21,731 bases of DNA, taken from IMG/VR virus record IMGVR_UViG_3300017719_000258, positions 1 through 21,731 of that record, one strand, 5' to 3'. This DNA comes from a virus. The stretch's first letter is position 1; every line of letters starts with the position of its first letter. The translations under genes and the position numbers were made by a program. Positions 10,557-19,208 of this stretch are shown here, in pieces. The notes below the pieces were generated by a model, which searched no databases, had not been told where the DNA came from, and worked only from the letters and a program-made list of their open reading frames with translations.

Positions 10557-11276
10557 TTAATTACCTGTTTCTATCTCAGGAATAAAGGCAGGAATCCCTT
10601 GAAGATGCCCTTCCGGAGTGGTTTGTTGAAAGTTAAAATCTGTAAGTCCTTCAAACATAAAATCTGGAAACATTCCACTTACTTGGGTATTTTCATTCAT
10701 TACTTCAAAACTAACTGGTCTTCCTGGTACGCGCAATTCTCCATATAACAAAGGCACTGGATCTCCTTCTTGTATATTAGTAGCGGCTCCATCAAACAAA
10801 TAAGATTTTGGCCCTGTTTTATCTGTAGCAGGATCAGGCAGCATTAATTGTTGTATTCCTGAAAGAGCTAAATTAACCGCCATACCTCCCAATACTTGAC
10901 CATAAGTAAGAGTTCCTCCTTTAACAATAGTAGTAGCAAGATATGCTTGGTGAGGTCCCGGAATTAACATAAATGCAACAATAGCTAAAGCTGCTAGTAG
11001 TTTTCCTCCTCCTGACTTTGATCCAGCAGGGACCGGAGTTACAAATAAATCTCCTTCTTCTAAGGCGTCTAACCCCTCTTCTTGAGCAATACTCCTATCT
11101 GCGATTTCACAGCGAAAAGATACCCCTTTTTCAGCACACTCAATCATATGCTGCTTTAGGCTAGGGTCATTTGCATGTAGTAGTCTAAACAAGTCACTCA
11201 AAGTGGGTACATTTAATAATAGCTTTTCCCCAAACCTATCAGCGAGCTCGCCTTGTAAATACACATTACGATTCAT
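10557..11276 (-). CDS. I: Tail tip assembly protein, lambda gpI-like, 239 aa
   Basis: In lambda, I acts with J, L and K to build the tip complex before tube polymerisation. The first 85 residues look like the compact ubiquitin-like start of gpI proteins (MNRNVYLQGELADRFGEKL...). A glycine-rich hydrophobic segment follows at about 88-107 (SGGGKLLAALAIVAFMLIPG), then a second Gly/Ala-rich stretch (about 120-140), then GDPVPLLYGELRVPGRPVSF (171-190), a conserved motif of this family. It overlaps the end of gene K by 11 bases and is followed 12 bases later by J, so it sits exactly where gpI is expected. The hydrophobic stretch may aid membrane interaction, but that is inference. Confidence 0.9.
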   Translation of the reverse strand: MNRNVYLQGELADRFGEKLLLNVPTLSDLFRLLHANDPSLKQHMIECAEKGVSFRCEIADRSIAQEEGLDALEEGDLFVTPVPAGSKSGGGKLLAALAIVAFMLIPGPHQAYLATTIVKGGTLTYGQVLGGMAVNLALSGIQQLMLPDPATDKTGPKSYLFDGAATNIQEGDPVPLLYGELRVPGRPVSFEVMNENTQVSGMFPDFMFEGLTDFNFQQTTPEGHLQGIPAFIPEIETGN

Positions 11277-11970
11277 ATCTATATATACCTGTTAAATGCT
11301 GTATCCAAAAAGGATACAAATTTTCTTTGCAGGAAAGTCTTTTCTCTGCATGATGAAACATTAAATCATTCCCTAAGTAAACTCCACAATGATTACCTAC
11401 ATCAGTTGTAACTGAAAATACTAATAAGTCATTAGGTTGAGGATCTACTACTTTTTTAAACCCCCAAGTTGATATATACTCTTCAGTAAAATAATCTAAT
11501 TCTTTTTTCCACCAATCATCTTCATACAAGTCCCTATTAGGAAGATTAACCCCTATCGAACTATAATAATCTCTTGCAGCTTCGAAACAGTCACTAACTC
11601 CAAATTCATACTCTCTTCCTGATAATGACTTCTTTTGTAATGTAGGCTCTACTATACATAAGTCCATTTCTGGAAAACTAAACACATAATAGGGTATTCC
11701 TAATGCATTACAGCAATTTATATCATGTTCTGAAGGAGTAGACTCTCCATCAGGGTGGCTGTGTACAATGCCTACTATATCAAATTTTTGTTTTATTTTA
11801 AAGAACTCTCGGGAACATATGATAAATTCTTCTTCGCCTTTTGCTTTATTTTCGCAAGGTATCCACTGAAGCTTTCCTTTTTTCACCCCTAGTATACCAC
11901 AGCCTTCCCTTGGGTATTCGTTTTCGAAGTGCTCTTCGATGCTGTATAACCAATTACTTAAATTTGTCAC
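11266..11970 (-). CDS. K: Tail tip peptidase, lambda gpK-like (JAMM + NlpC/P60)
   Basis: This is a two-domain predicted hydrolase. The N-terminal JAMM/MPN metallopeptidase domain keeps all expected zinc-site residues: Glu22 in PREGCGILG, and His70, His72 and Asp83 in HSHPDGESTPSEHD. The C-terminal NlpC/P60 domain has the nucleophile Cys128 (SDCFEAARDYY), His194 (NHCGVYLG) and further histidines at 206-207. Both domains therefore look active, which fits a role in tip processing and local peptidoglycan cleavage during infection. Start choice: the frame can be extended to a TTG at 12000, but a GTG at 11970 with GGAGGG 10 bases upstream is better supported and starts MTNLSNWLY. With that start it overlaps the end of gene L by 17 bases and the start of I by 11. 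If the TTG is used the protein is 244 residues instead of 234. Confidence 0.92.
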   Translation of the reverse strand: MTNLSNWLYSIEEHFENEYPREGCGILGVKKGKLQWIPCENKAKGEEEFIICSREFFKIKQKFDIVGIVHSHPDGESTPSEHDINCCNALGIPYYVFSFPEMDLCIVEPTLQKKSLSGREYEFGVSDCFEAARDYYSSIGVNLPNRDLYEDDWWKKELDYFTEEYISTWGFKKVVDPQPNDLLVFSVTTDVGNHCGVYLGNDLMFHHAEKRLSCKENLYPFWIQHLTGIYRYES

Positions 11971-13069
11971 TTCCAGGGAACCCTCCAAAAGGCAATACAA
12001 TATCGTTCTTTTGCTCTATAGATGCTTGAGAGTTAGCTTGATCGGCAATAGCTTTATAACCAAATCTAGCTTTACAGCCTGCTAAAGTTTTAGAGCAAAT
12101 ATCTACTCTTTTCCAAAATAAAGAACCTTCTATAGGAGATTTTCCAGTAGAACTCTTTAACGCCTTCCAAATGTTACCGCCAGACTTTACATAAGCACCT
12201 ACAGAGTACGCAGTTGATGAGCTGTATGTTGAGTATTGATTTGCTTCTCTCCAGTACTGGGTATTTCGAGCAGGAGTATTTCCACTATTGTTTGCAACTT
12301 TACTTTGATACGTAGTATTATTGTAAGTTACAAAAACATTTTGGGCATACGTAGTACTATTACTCCAGCTGCTTGTACTTACATTTGTTACAAGCGGATT
12401 ATCATAAATATCGAAAAAAGCAGCCTGTGCTCTATCGTTTTGATCAATTATAGAACTATCTGAAGGAAATATACAACCTCCACACCCCTGTTTTTCTCTA
12501 CCTTGATAAATCCAAGAACAATACTTGCCTACCACAAACCTACCGGGCAACTTTACTCCTTCTAGATCAAAAGGCGCTGCTAGCTCAAAAGTTATAAGAG
12601 TATTTGTACGAGTTGATATTCTATCAATAATATACGTTGCTTCTGGAAACTCAAAAGGACTACTAGCGTCATCTCCTCCTACTAAATATTTTGCAAAAGT
12701 TCTTCGTCTTCGCAACTTTGTTCCAACTAAGTCTTCAAATGTAAAATCCTCATCATCAAGAGAGCTCCTAAGAAGATTTGTTACATTTGCAATTGTAAGA
12801 GTGGGTCTGTTTCCTGGGCCATCTGAAGTACTTTCTACCCCCGACATTTCCATTGGTATGGCAGTATACTCATTTGCTTCAGAATTATTATTCTTATTAG
12901 CCTCTCCGTGAGGATGAAATTTAAGCGTGCTTAAGTTTTCTTCTACCCCAGGGTGAAAGAATAAAGTAGGGTTGTTATCCGAAGGGTCTAGAATTAATTC
13001 AAATAGCTCTACAAGAGGGCTGGATTGTGATTGTACTAGATCACTTGTTATAATATCATTAGTAGCCAT
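11954..13069 (-). CDS. L: Minor tail tip protein, lambda gpL-like, with inserted repeats, 371 aa
   Basis: Lambda gpL is a 232-residue tip protein that binds an iron-sulphur cluster through four cysteines. Here the same cysteine set is visible (Cys184, Cys196, Cys199, Cys325, Cys332), along with family landmarks such as KLPGRFVVGKYCSW, QGCGGC, CSKTLAGCKARFG and the terminal LPFGGFPG. The protein is about 140 residues longer. Much of the excess is a block at residues 228-323, placed between the GCGGC cysteines and CSKTLAGC. That block holds two repeats resembling small chitin/carbohydrate-binding modules. It starts by a TAATG overlap with gene M and ends just inside gene K, the lambda order M-L-K. 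The gpL call is firm; cluster binding is by homology, and the binding role of the insert is inference. Confidence 0.92.
   Translation of the reverse strand: MATNDIITSDLVQSQSSPLVELFELILDPSDNNPTLFFHPGVEENLSTLKFHPHGEANKNNNSEANEYTAIPMEMSGVESTSDGPGNRPTLTIANVTNLLRSSLDDEDFTFEDLVGTKLRRRRTFAKYLVGGDDASSPFEFPEATYIIDRISTRTNTLITFELAAPFDLEGVKLPGRFVVGKYCSWIYQGREKQGCGGCIFPSDSSIIDQNDRAQAAFFDIYDNPLVTNVSTSSWSNSTTYAQNVFVTYNNTTYQSKVANNSGNTPARNTQYWREANQYSTYSSSTAYSVGAYVKSGGNIWKALKSSTGKSPIEGSLFWKRVDICSKTLAGCKARFGYKAIADQANSQASIEQKNDIVLPFGGFPGSDKFK
12101..12388 (-). repeat. Two carbohydrate-binding-like repeats inserted in L
   Basis: Residues 235-275 and 279-323 share a W/Y...TTY or STAY, (V/G).Y...G/N, (Y/W)(Q/K)(S/A), P...W spacing, ending at Trp273 and Trp319. 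This aromatic pattern is typical of CBM5/12-like modules, in which exposed Trp and Tyr bind polysaccharide. Lambda gpL has no such block. Confidence 0.62.
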
Positions 13070-13446
13070 TAGCTTTCATATACTCTTTTAAAAGTTGCCT
13101 CAACCATAGAGAAATCGTCATTTACAAAAGTAAGTGCATAATCTTGACAAATTACTTTTATTGTTTTCTCTCCTCCACTCGCATTTGTATCTGGATATGT
13201 ATAATTAAATGCAGTTACACCTTTTTTATCTTCAAAAAAAGCCATAATATCATCTGCATTGTCGTCTGTTCTGTTATTAAATCGAAGTACAAAAGTTTGA
13301 TTAATACTGTTAATACCATCCGCTAATCTTTGCTCATAGCCATCGCCAAAAGCTGAGGTAAGTACTCTAGGGCTGTGGTTATGTTTTAACATTCTGTCTG
13401 GAATAGCTTGAGTGCTACCATCTAATAAAGTAAATCCGATTGCCAT
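13069..13446 (-). CDS. M: Minor tail protein, lambda gpM-like, 125 aa
   Basis: This is a small tip protein that in lambda joins the J-I-L-K complex around the tape measure end and forms the link to the tube. The segment FGDGYEQRLADGINSINQTF (residues 34-53) is a strong landmark for this family, and the length matches (lambda M is 109). The last third (DYALTFVNDDFSMVEATFKRVYE) fits the beta-rich fold shared with tube proteins. It is coupled on both sides by TAATG overlaps, to the tape measure gene before it and L after it, the position expected from lambda. No odd features seen. Confidence 0.92.
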   Translation of the reverse strand: MAIGFTLLDGSTQAIPDRMLKHNHSPRVLTSAFGDGYEQRLADGINSINQTFVLRFNNRTDDNADDIMAFFEDKKGVTAFNYTYPDTNASGGEKTIKVICQDYALTFVNDDFSMVEATFKRVYES

Positions 13447-16400: not shown

Positions 16401-17117
16401 TGTAGCAATGAACTTTTCTTCTAACTGAGTTTGTACTTCGAGAGCAACAGCTTGTTTCTGCTCTAACAACGATAAAGACTTAGCAGTTTTGCCTACTTGA
16501 GCTGCAAACTTTTTCTTTGCATCTTCTAGTCGAAGAGTGATACCTAATTCATCTAGTAGTTCTGGTTCTGCTTTTGTTACACCACGAACAAGTCGATCAA
16601 AAGAGTCTGCTACGTCTCTTCCTAAAATTTTTGATACGGCGGAGGCGCCTTCAGCTAAGTCAGTAAGCTGTTTGGGAGTAAGTCCAGAAGCTACACCAAT
16701 AGCAGCAGCTTGAGACGCTTCTTGAAATTCCAGCATTCCCTCTGTTGCGGAGCGAATATCATTTGAAAGTGTTTTAAGAGCAGTACCTGTACTAGAAGCA
16801 TAGGCTACTTGAGAATCTTGTAAAACTCGTAAATCCCCTACTTTTTTGAAGAACTCAAACGCGGCGCTAACAGCAAATGCGGTTGCGGCTAAAGTTGCAT
16901 AAACACCAACTAAACCTCCAACACCTTGTGCCATTTTTGAGAAGTTTTTAGTTCCGTTTGCAGAAGCTTGCGCAGCCCCTTTAAGATTACGATCAGCAGT
17001 ATGAGCACTCTTGCCTACATTATCTAATTGCACGCCGAGCTTGGCCGCATCAACGGATACTTTTTTCATTTGTCCGTTAACAACTACATCTATTAAAACT
17101 GTATTTTTCTTTGCCAT
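13446..17117 (-). CDS. H: Tape measure protein, lambda gpH-like, 1223 aa
   Basis: This protein sets tail length and is ejected into the host envelope ahead of the DNA. The N-terminus has an amphipathic start and a hydrophobic segment at about 67-90 (GGLVGVYATLAATAFAVSAA). A second hydrophobic segment lies at about 281-300 (IKAFIAVIALFAVSV) and a third near 450-475 (AFTFLLIIGD). Long helical regions rich in Leu, Glu and Lys lie between. The C-terminus carries the conserved end of the family: AGYPAILHGTEAVVPLPNGK, Asn-rich SVSVNVNN, and QKRAGGILSPYG. Lambda H is 853 residues, so this tail should be clearly longer than lambda's, assuming the usual proportionality. It begins by TAATG overlap with the GT frame and ends by TAATG overlap with M. 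The hydrophobic stretches may serve membrane passage. Confidence 0.95.
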   Translation of the reverse strand: MAKKNTVLIDVVVNGQMKKVSVDAAKLGVQLDNVGKSAHTADRNLKGAAQASANGTKNFSKMAQGVGGLVGVYATLAATAFAVSAAFEFFKKVGDLRVLQDSQVAYASSTGTALKTLSNDIRSATEGMLEFQEASQAAAIGVASGLTPKQLTDLAEGASAVSKILGRDVADSFDRLVRGVTKAEPELLDELGITLRLEDAKKKFAAQVGKTAKSLSLLEQKQAVALEVQTQLEEKFIATSEAIKVNDNAVKKLGVAFSDVFNVVSTFLSGPVEGIANFLANNIKAFIAVIALFAVSVTKSMMPSFDSFVDAAQDASREASNALKNAKEDLDELKKASNPTESVRGALKNVKAEKGSGIDRLRNQEKLSKRQAATLLRFAEQEKGVYNQLTAHQKLVYKKSLRDILGIKETFWQRSKRGWSGLTAHIRVQTQKVKVIWRTTMAALTRFTTAAMTKIGNAINSAFSAFTFLLIIGDVAKSIYKKFNPLEEQIKEIANMTAEAVEGLKTMATEFGRTADGINGHLEKVSENMGSKVVGGTMTSMKTLTNFMSNVIPRLTEFVQIAETAATVKAEKGIVSGFANSDILNLLNTEEGVASAKRLAQEIEAVFNIEGLGVGMTAPLKNFIGLLNSENFDTNQLKNYTNAVTELGEEFQLQHQNLVAFNESFNSSNLAFTQLTTSITNYKTKATDLLEVTEDEIRATALRTDMLGNLIEGTKEYSKTTKTLIERLAVLRLLHQVETQADLDKLRNEFEFQNATRFGTSLINERATAKKAISDMDADIVEKTAELSLLVGDGNILEKDQARVDLLAGQLGLLMNQRDILQEQEDVMNRLGQAGLQGLETGMQSNIAALLKGEEKSGKDAVLKMLKSAAESVADELANQLTESMMGGIRSILNIQKKKTPDELMREAIETASTAGAVKYKVALGEAGAEFVRLVKQEIKDPTVAEKIKTQDGEIIDTTSTPSTELNNRVNSLLTKLENTPLPIALDQSLIPLKVKIVEDLTKSVPTGTGTGTSVDGVVIDSPITNTKQQRTEQQQVEKTQDYINHTEQLNDTSVNLNDSTKGLSITMDQVGQTFASGIGSLLASLGGGGAGGIVMGALGQIASAFVGAKFGATARSGAILEGYSAGGIAKGREAGYPAILHGTEAVVPLPNGKQIPVEMKGGAGQQNNISVSVNVNNEGGATTEVEGDQGGQNLGRAIAGAVQQELMNQKRAGGILSPYGAS

Positions 17118-17955
17118 TAGCCTTTTACATTATGGGTGAAGTTTTTTCCGCCCCTTGCCTTTGATCGCGTTTCTTCGGCTTTTCGTTTTCGTTCTGCTTC
17201 TTCTGCTCTACTACTTACTATAATATTTTCATAGAGTTTCATAAAGTATAAAGTAATTCTAGGCTCTTCTACTTCGTACAACTTAAAAAAGTAATCTATA
17301 CCGTCCCAATATTTTCCCATGTATGTGCCACTCATGCCTTCATAGTGATCTGGCAGTAAGCTGAACATAAAAAATGCCGTCTGTACTTCAGACGGAAAGT
17401 CCGAAGTATCCAGCGGCATCTTGGTGGGGTCAGGCTCTTGTCCGAGTTGTTCGCAGACAGCCAGATACTTATCTATAGTAAACTTAGAGGTTGACTCTTT
17501 TACTAAACGGGTAAGTAGAGCTTCTATATGCTCTACTTGTTCCCAGTAAAATTTTCAAGGTCACCTACTGTTTCAGTAACCCAAGTGTCAAACACATTAG
17601 AGTTTTTCATAAGTAACTCTGCATTATCTGTTGTGTAAGGAAGTTCATCTTCAGGATCATACGCCGAGACATCCACCAATAGAAGCTCTTCTAGGTACGA
17701 AAATTTCAGGCCAGACCATGACTTAATTACTGCCTTACAGTATTCTGTTAAAAACTTTTCTTCGTCTAATATTTCTTCAGGTTGACGAGTTTTCTTATCA
17801 AATTTTGTGCTTACGCATTTTTTTCGTAGCTTTACTAGTTCTTCTCGTGCCAGATAGCATAGAGAAACTTTCATGCCGGAATAGCCGGGAAAGTCTAGTG
17901 ATACGGTCTTACTTGGAGTCATTAGACTCGCTAAAGAAATAGGTGAATCGCTCAT
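17117..17955 (-). CDS. GT: Tail assembly chaperone GT, made by -1 frameshift
   Basis: The G frame and the downstream frame join into one product of about 279 residues if ribosomes slip back one base at A AAT TTT (17548-17554). Residues 1-136 come from G and end LENF. The new frame then continues YWEQVEHIEALLTRLVKEST...EQLGQEPDPTKMPLDTSDF and has no stop before 17117. Lambda GT is made the same way and keeps the tape measure soluble while recruiting tube subunits through the T part. An apparent 100-residue gene starting at the ATG at 17419 has no ribosome site and lies inside this continuous frame, so it is better read as the T part. The T end is rich in charged residues (EEAERKRKAEETRSKARGGK) and overlaps the tape measure start by TAATG. 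Confidence 0.9.
17513..17554 (-). promoter_or_regulatory. -1 programmed frameshift signal (slippery site and hairpin)
   Basis: The heptamer AAATTTT at 17554-17548 is in the correct G-frame register (A AAT TTT), so both tRNAs can re-pair after slipping. It is followed by a 9-base spacer and then a perfect 9-bp hairpin. AAGTAGAGC (17538-17530) pairs with GCTCTACTT (17521-17513) around an 8-base loop. The G stop codon TAG lies within the 5' arm of the stem. All parts match known stimulators of -1 frameshifting. Confidence 0.9.
17533..17955 (-). CDS. G: Tail assembly chaperone G, 140 aa
   Basis: This is the unshifted product of the chaperone pair. In lambda, G coats the tape measure protein and is the more abundant of the two proteins. 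The start is an ATG with AAGGAT 7 bases upstream. The gene is the first of the transcript from the promoter at 17993-18021. The sequence is mostly helical and acidic toward the end (SYLEELLLVDVSAYDPEDEL, then DTWVTETVGDLENFTGNK), ending at TAG inside the frameshift hairpin. Length is as in lambda (also 140). Assignment rests on position between the tube and tape measure genes and on the frameshift, more than on sequence motifs. Confidence 0.88.
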   Translation of the reverse strand: MSDSPISLASLMTPSKTVSLDFPGYSGMKVSLCYLAREELVKLRKKCVSTKFDKKTRQPEEILDEEKFLTEYCKAVIKSWSGLKFSYLEELLLVDVSAYDPEDELPYTTDNAELLMKNSNVFDTWVTETVGDLENFTGNK

Positions 17956-17992
17956 TTTTTATCCTTGTGAGAGTGTAAATTTATATCTTGTA

Positions 17993-18040
17993 ATTATAGG
18001 TTATGAGAGGTGAGATGTCAAGATTTATTTTTAAGAGGTA
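17993..18040 (-). promoter_or_regulatory. Perfect sigma70-type promoter for the G-to-J tail genes
   Basis: On the minus strand TTGACA (18016-18021) and TATAAT (17993-17998) are separated by exactly 17 bases. The A/T-rich block upstream (to 18040) matches 24 of 26 bases of the block at 5491-5516, while the spacers differ. Expected transcription start is near 17986, about 30 bases before the G start codon. It lies directly after the tube terminator, so the tail genes below are restarted independently. Confidence 0.9.
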
Positions 18041-18043
18041 ACG

Positions 18044-18067
18044 AAAAAAGGGGCCGGAGCCCCTTAA
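18044..18067 (-). terminator. Intrinsic terminator after the tail tube gene
   Basis: A 7-bp GC-rich stem, AAGGGGC (18048-18054 as read on plus) with GCCCCTT (18059-18065), closes a 4-base loop. On the minus strand it is followed at once by six T residues (18044-18049, partly in the stem). The loop on the transcript is UCCG. It lies 17 bases after the tube stop codon and just before the promoter at 17993-18021. Confidence 0.93.
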
Positions 18068-18083
18068 AGAATAATCTTTATTA

Positions 18084-19208
18084 TTATTCTCCGACGTACT
18101 TAATAAGTAGTTCGTCAGTTCCATCAATTGTACTAGGCAACGCGTGGAAGTTAGTCTCTATTGAAATAACGTCATCAATTGAGTGAGTAGGTACTTCTAA
18201 GTGACATTGTGCCATATTTAGCTCAACACGAGGAGTTGCGGTTGCTCCTCCAATTTTAAATATTAAAGTAAAATCGTTTGTAATCTTAGTTGTATCTTCA
18301 ATAATATTTTCAAAAAGCTCAGCACTTGAGTCGTCTTCTGCATTTAAGTAACACGTAAAGTTACCTGATACAGAACGAGTTCCCGTTACGTGCCCCAAAG
18401 GCTGGTTAACTACTCCTAGAGTCTCTGGAGTTAAGAAGGTAATATTATTTGAAATAGTAATGTTTCCTCCTGTTAAAACTAAATTATACGTTGCAGGATG
18501 ACCTCCTCCCATAGTAGTCGTAGCTGCTAAGCTAGTTAGCCTATTACGAATAAAATTATCCGTATCTGTAGCTAATGAGCCTTCAGTAATAGTGGCTGTG
18601 GGGGCAGTATCTTCTGTAATAAGCTTACCAAAACCAGACCAATTAATAGTAGCAATACCATCAATATCAAAATCAATAGAAGCTTCATTTACAACGCAGC
18701 CATCAATCTTATAAGTAGTTTTTGTCCCAGAGCCTGCTCCGCCCATTACAAAAAAGATTTCTACTGATTTTGTGCCGTCTGCTCCTTCTGCTAACGTTGT
18801 TTTATTTGAGTTTGCAAAAGTGATATCAAGATCTGATGTATCGGCACTAAATCCAGTAAAAGTATGTGATGCATATGCAGCATTTCCAACCATCATTGCC
18901 CAAAGAACTTCTTCTACTGCGTGGTGAGTATTTTGCGTATCGTCTGCGGCACCTGCGCCTGAGCCCGCTGATTTAAATGGGCGCATATAAGTTGAAAAAC
19001 TCCATTCTGCAGGTGCATAGGAGTCTGTAAACATTTGACGACCTCGACGGCTATTGCCTGCGGTGTCCGCCATTTCATTCAGAGTAATTTCTGATGCATT
19101 TGTTGCTTGCGAAAAAGAGAATCCGTCAAGAACAGGCATTTCCCAAACTGCACTGTCTATCTTAACGAATACCTTAGTATCGCGACTAAAATATAATGTA
19201 TCTGCCAT
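18084..19208 (-). CDS. Major tail tube protein, 374 aa
   Basis: This subunit forms the tail tube around the tape measure. The start has AGGAG about 8 bases before the ATG. N-terminal landmarks (YFSRDTKVFVKIDSAVWEMPVLDGFSFSQATNASEITLNEMAD, residues about 6-48) fit a tail tube fold in which an early strand pair and the long loop stack subunits. RRGRQMFTDSYAPAEWSFST follows. The C-terminal half is Thr/Ser/Gly-rich and beta-like. At 374 residues it is larger than lambda V (246), so an extra surface domain at the C-terminal end is likely. It is followed by its own strong terminator, consistent with a highly expressed structural gene. The 62-base gap before it shows no convincing promoter. The assignment rests on position and pattern and is fairly confident. 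Confidence 0.87.
   Translation of the reverse strand: MADTLYFSRDTKVFVKIDSAVWEMPVLDGFSFSQATNASEITLNEMADTAGNSRRGRQMFTDSYAPAEWSFSTYMRPFKSAGSGAGAADDTQNTHHAVEEVLWAMMVGNAAYASHTFTGFSADTSDLDITFANSNKTTLAEGADGTKSVEIFFVMGGAGSGTKTTYKIDGCVVNEASIDFDIDGIATINWSGFGKLITEDTAPTATITEGSLATDTDNFIRNRLTSLAATTTMGGGHPATYNLVLTGGNITISNNITFLTPETLGVVNQPLGHVTGTRSVSGNFTCYLNAEDDSSAELFENIIEDTTKITNDFTLIFKIGGATATPRVELNMAQCHLEVPTHSIDDVISIETNFHALPSTIDGTDELLIKYVGE

Follow-up and report, generated by a model that had tools for sequence, protein, structure and literature searches.

A Candidate Programmed -1 Frameshift Signal Joining the Tail Assembly Chaperone Genes G and T in a Group of Marine Phages

A site near the 3' end of the G-like gene in an uncultured marine tailed phage (IMG/VR virus record IMGVR_UViG_3300017719_000258) is, with a probability that we put at about 95%, a programmed -1 frameshift signal from which two tail assembly chaperones, G and a G-T fusion, would be made. 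The assignment was reached by comparing sequences across the window, by which we mean the whole 21,731-nt stretch analyzed, and its relatives. We infer from these comparisons that slippage takes place, that it is of low rate and that the products act as chaperones. The features of the junction and its surroundings are listed in Table 1.

Table 1. Features of the G/T junction and neighboring tail genes in the window
Feature	Positions	Strand	Basis or remark
Major tail (tube) protein, upstream neighbor	18084..19208	-	PF18906, PHROG 3575
G-like tail assembly chaperone, 140 aa, ends TAG	17533..17955	-	ORF; PHROG 313, E 1e-10
TGA closing the T (-1) frame	17555..17557	-	Directly 5' of the heptamer
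Candidate slippery heptamer A AAT TTT	17548..17554	-	In G frame, near the G 3' end
Spacer ACTGGGAAC, 9 nt	17539..17547	-	Between heptamer and stem
Hairpin	17513..17538	-	Fold, synonymous-recoding null, covariation
G stop codon TAG	17533..17535	-	Sits in the 5' arm of the stem; TAG/TAA in relatives
T region, -1 frame, PHROG 3914	17117..17548	-	143 codons plus TAA (17119-17117)
100-codon sub-frame from internal ATG	17117..17419	-	Judged part of T
Putative tape measure protein, 1223 aa	13446..17117	-	Size and position only

On the minus strand the 3' end of G reads GAA AAT TTT ACT GGG AAC AAG TAG, with the heptamer in phase. Downstream, the arms AAGTAGAGC (17538-17530) and GCTCTACTT (17521-17513) form a perfect 9-bp hairpin with an 8-nt loop. 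Because the -1 frame is closed by the TGA, a slip can occur only after that codon and before the G stop, an interval of approximately 20 nt in which A AAT TTT is the sole X XXY YYZ heptamer (a two-tRNA slip site). The predicted G-T fusion is 279 aa in length, with the junction peptide LENFYWEQVEH passing from G to T after LENF. A preliminary description made from these letters had proposed the heptamer, the 9-base spacer and the 9-bp hairpin containing the G stop, all of which were recovered base for base, and the sequence bears out its statement that the -1 frame is open for 143 codons. Alignments with the relatives begin at the earliest codons of T.

Of the 6,930 codon positions in the window, 42 (0.6%) hold an in-frame X XXY YYZ site. 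A perfect hairpin of at least 9 bp with a 4-12 nt loop was counted twice in its 21.7 kb, compared with 1.3 expected under codon shuffling. Since both elements are rare in the window, their combination is not expected by chance. The 81-nt region folded with z = -3.7 against dinucleotide shuffles and with z = -4.85 when T was recoded synonymously.

In the proposed mechanism, most ribosomes would terminate at the TAG, yielding the 140-aa chaperone. In a minority, slowed by the hairpin beginning 9 nt downstream, the tRNA-Asn and tRNA-Phe would slip back one base on A AAU UUU into the T frame, giving G-T. By analogy with lambda, G and G-T would be present in an unequal, many-to-one ratio; as for gpG/gpGT, the tape measure protein would be coated by the G part, and recruitment of the tail tube protein would fall to the T part. 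Consistent with this mechanism, the fusion proteins align gap-free across the junction between clades.

The neighborhood is that of a tail module, in the order tail tube, G, T and tape measure. The start of the putative tape measure gene overlaps the T stop (TAATG), and no family match naming that ORF as a tape measure protein was obtained. The PHROGs assigned to G and T are both tail assembly chaperones, and a Pfam search gave no family for either protein. When G was modeled with AlphaFold (mean pLDDT 80.6), Foldseek matched the result to models of T5-like tape measure chaperones (E 3e-12 to 7e-11), with weaker hits to other tail assembly chaperones; the top matches of the G model in the PDB, YqbN (3klu, Z 5.7) and HK97 (2ob9, Z 4.8), were below a trustworthy level, so that the likeness to 2ob9 is no more than suggestive. 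The tail module as a whole (window 10557-13446 and 17117-19208) is mosaic, in that the tube and G/T are nearest to those of T5-like phages and the downstream tail-tip genes M, L, K (JAB plus NlpC/P60) and I are lambda-like (PF05939, PF05100, PHROG 32). Past its L domain, the gpL-like protein (window 11954-13069) has a carbohydrate-binding module, CBM_5_12, spanning residues 235-273.

A search of IMG/VR with the G or T protein yielded 158 loci holding both. The comparison set comprised 89 distinct sequences, namely the window and 88 IMG/VR relatives, which share ancestry and are not independent, so that counts made on them overstate the evidence. The T frame was -1 relative to G and open in 89/89 sequences; the stop that closes it lay 19-61 nt before the G stop, and none of the 89 sequences had a T-frame stop between the heptamer and the position corresponding to 17419. 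The codons GAA AAT TTT were identical in 88/89. The sole marine exception, locus L019 (2990-3053), reads GAT TTT TTT, which places T TTT TTT, again of the X XXY YYZ form, in the same phase. This replacement heptamer would preserve the slip.

Codon choice at the site was compared with that elsewhere in G. The slip-site Asn was encoded by AAT in 88/88 sequences, versus 50% AAT for Asn elsewhere in G, and the Asn codons lying 17 and 24 codons upstream varied freely between AAT and AAC. The slip-site Phe was TTT in 89/89, versus 85% elsewhere in G. Third codon positions were frozen only at GAA AAT TTT, and this contrast with the neighboring codons is independent of the kinship of the relatives. 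Some 9 nt ahead of the heptamer stands a Shine-Dalgarno-like sequence, GTAGGTGA, which we do not claim as an upstream stimulator, since conserved Val-Gly-Asp codons of ordinary codon use explain it.

The stem was evaluated in each sequence against synonymous recoding of T, with codon usage taken from the remainder of T. It exceeded this null at p<=0.05 in 77/89 sequences, with a median z of -3.0, while control positions along G and T gave median z values of -0.6 to +0.5 under the same recoding. The remaining 12/89, with p>0.05, make up the dozen or so relatives whose stems are weak or displaced. Covariation was counted on a 79-row ungapped alignment containing 72 distinct rows. In the main register of the stem named here, 77.6% of cells paired, versus 33-46% when the register was slid by 1-3 columns, and 64 cells carried double changes, compared with 18.6 after shuffling. 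The change of the stop from TAG to TAA was matched by a change of its partner from C to U, converting G-C to A-U at the third stop base. The outer pairs of the main stem formed in only 55-60% of rows, and other relatives had a stem of different register or length. RNAalifold returned no single consensus structure for the 79-row alignment, because stem register and length differ among relatives. The preliminary description had expected an alignment of related phages to conserve heptamer and stem; the one heptamer that departs is a functional equivalent, and the stem is kept through covariation.

An alternative explanation for the open T frame is that T is a separate 100-aa gene, translated from ATG 17419 by reinitiation or weak internal initiation, with the heptamer incidental. 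The ATG is invariant (89/89), and homologous T genes are annotated as their own CDS in cultured T5-like phages. However, the invariant Met lies within the conserved motif PDPxKMPL and so can be structural, and the ATG is 114 nt past the G stop. Ahead of it, Shine-Dalgarno matches do not exceed 3 nt in any of the 89 sequences, whereas G starts in the relatives mostly have a 5-nt match. The 43 T codons upstream of this ATG are conserved as protein; within them, codons 8-43 have nonsynonymous/synonymous ratios of 0.63 and 0.38, like the remainder of T (0.62). A separate T would also leave the invariant heptamer and the covarying stem unexplained, and a conserved ribosome site at 17419 combined with loss of the heptamer was not found among the 89 sequences. 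We therefore regard a separate T gene as very improbable, and agree with the earlier claim that the 100-residue frame at 17419 is not an independent gene, given the missing Shine-Dalgarno sequence and the constraint on the upstream T codons. Occasional minor internal initiation at this ATG may occur. For annotation, the 100-residue ORF should be merged into T.

Two further readings keep the elements of the junction and assign them another role, and we give each of them hardly any credence. Transcriptional rather than ribosomal slippage could act on the A4T4 run, as bacterial RNA polymerase can slip on long A/T runs, but the runs described are of 8-9 bases (PMC3711429), while those at the junction are only four bases each (AAAA and TTTT); an RNA stem 9 nt away and an X XXY YYZ motif phased for -1 fit ribosomal slippage instead. 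Alternatively, the hairpin, spanning the G stop, might act chiefly on translation or on the mRNA, for instance by coupling to the tape measure gene, with the slip as a by-product. The location of the G stop within the stem in most relatives is compatible with such a role, but in ten sequences whose G stop lies 9 nt later a different stem still persists downstream of the heptamer, and the heptamer itself is invariant. A programmed ribosomal -1 frameshift remains the preferred reading of the junction.

T5-like phages (Demerecviridae, e.g. T5.143/T5.142) encode G, T and tail tube proteins homologous to those of the window and, as in the window, their T frame is open from the end of G. A classifier run over the T5-like relatives separated three junction solutions. 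Marine sequences have A AAT TTT with T in the -1 frame, and freshwater sequences have either A AAT TTT or G GGA AAC, also with T at -1. In cultured T5-like phages, by contrast, T lies in the +1/-2 frame of G, and the junction reads ACT/ACC/AAC TTT CGT/CGA in 28/28 distinct overlaps, with UUU CGU/CGA invariant at the aligned Phe codon. This arrangement was absent from the window and from its marine and freshwater relatives, in all of which T is -1. Among the freshwater IMG/VR loci (L190-L214), A AAT TTT is followed, after a 9-nt spacer, by a 9-bp stem that spans the G stop, while G GGA AAC often has barely any stem, or none, downstream; it looks as though the stem makes up for a weaker heptamer.

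The fusions of the -1 and +1 sets align at the same Phe with no gap at the junction, in an alignment that presupposes the shift site, and a single branch parts the two sets (100/96) in a tree of which several branches are long. The overlap of G and T is just 11 nt in two T5-like loci (L218, L219). Influenza PA-X has its +1 site at UUU_CGU, and the tRNA involved forms better pairs with UUC (PMC3498833). We infer that ribosomes also shift at UUU_C in T5, with +1 favored over -2, because a move from UUU to UUC re-pairs fully and a -2 shift puts tRNA-Phe on CUU. The predicted T5 fusion peptide would end in ...TVFHLDTFVAQK if the shift is +1 and in ...TVFHLDTFFVAQK if it is -2, and free T would start MTKQQY. 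We lean toward the view that a homologous G-T fusion is reached by shifts of opposite sign at the same Phe, -1 on A AAU UUU or G GGA AAC and +1 on UUU_CGU/A in T5 and its cultured relatives. On this comparison, the fusion seems to have been retained when the direction of the shift changed.

Annotation of these phages is uneven. In T5 (L161, AY543070, approximately 11990-12080) and the related loci L162-L163 and L215-L225, T is +1/-2 of G and is mostly annotated as separate. T5 and Sugarland have been described as having no predicted frameshift signal (PMC6256483), and that report was the only one recovered in a literature search for a published T5 frameshift. Salmonella phage Shivani (L228 8208-9039, KP143763) is unlike the other T5-like records in carrying a two-piece joined CDS, annotated as a tape measure chaperone, the span and length of which (277 aa) imply a -2 reading. 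In-frame TAG codons have left the late genes of Aeromonas phage AhSzq-1 (NC_047949; L221 1500-1885, L227:12795-12869) annotated as fragments. Its G reads through TAG, with Gln or a different residue at that codon, and the phage encodes a tRNA whose anticodon is CTA, so that TAG probably has a sense meaning in these genes. Its junction is also TTT CGA.

These comparisons bring a large unannotated group of marine phages, with full comparative support, under the expression scheme known from lambda G/GT. They also offer a testable case in which selection kept the fusion through changes in the heptamer, in the stem and, apparently, in the direction of the slip, and they suggest that a frameshift has probably been overlooked in the classical laboratory phage T5.

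The frameshift of lambda G/GT was reportedly established by Levin in 1993 and by Xu, Hendrix and Duda in 2004, 2013 and 2014. By far the best reading of the window site is a frameshift of this lambda kind. As in lambda, the gene order is maintained, the direction is -1, an X XXY YYZ heptamer lies near the 3' end of G, T lacks a start of its own, and a G-like chaperone precedes the tape measure gene. Unlike lambda, in which the heptamer is G GGA AAG, the window has A AAT TTT, and a stable conserved hairpin encloses the G stop; moreover, the nearest sequence relatives of its G and T are T5-like and not lambda. The tail assembly chaperone frameshift of lambda is reviewed in PMC5009743.

The description of the junction as a distinct sequence solution holds insofar as the heptamer differs from that of lambda, but the heptamer is a conventional X XXY YYZ motif and not a new kind of signal. 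A literature search for this heptamer in phages found none, within a reach that stopped short of the heptamer tables of Xu 2004, 2013 and 2014. A AAU UUU has been reported as a conventional heptamer in the umbraviruses GRV and E-TBTV (PMC4737148), whose sites share with the window both the heptamer and a downstream structure near the stop; unlike the window, these are plant RNA viruses that use eukaryotic ribosomes and place the signal in different genes.
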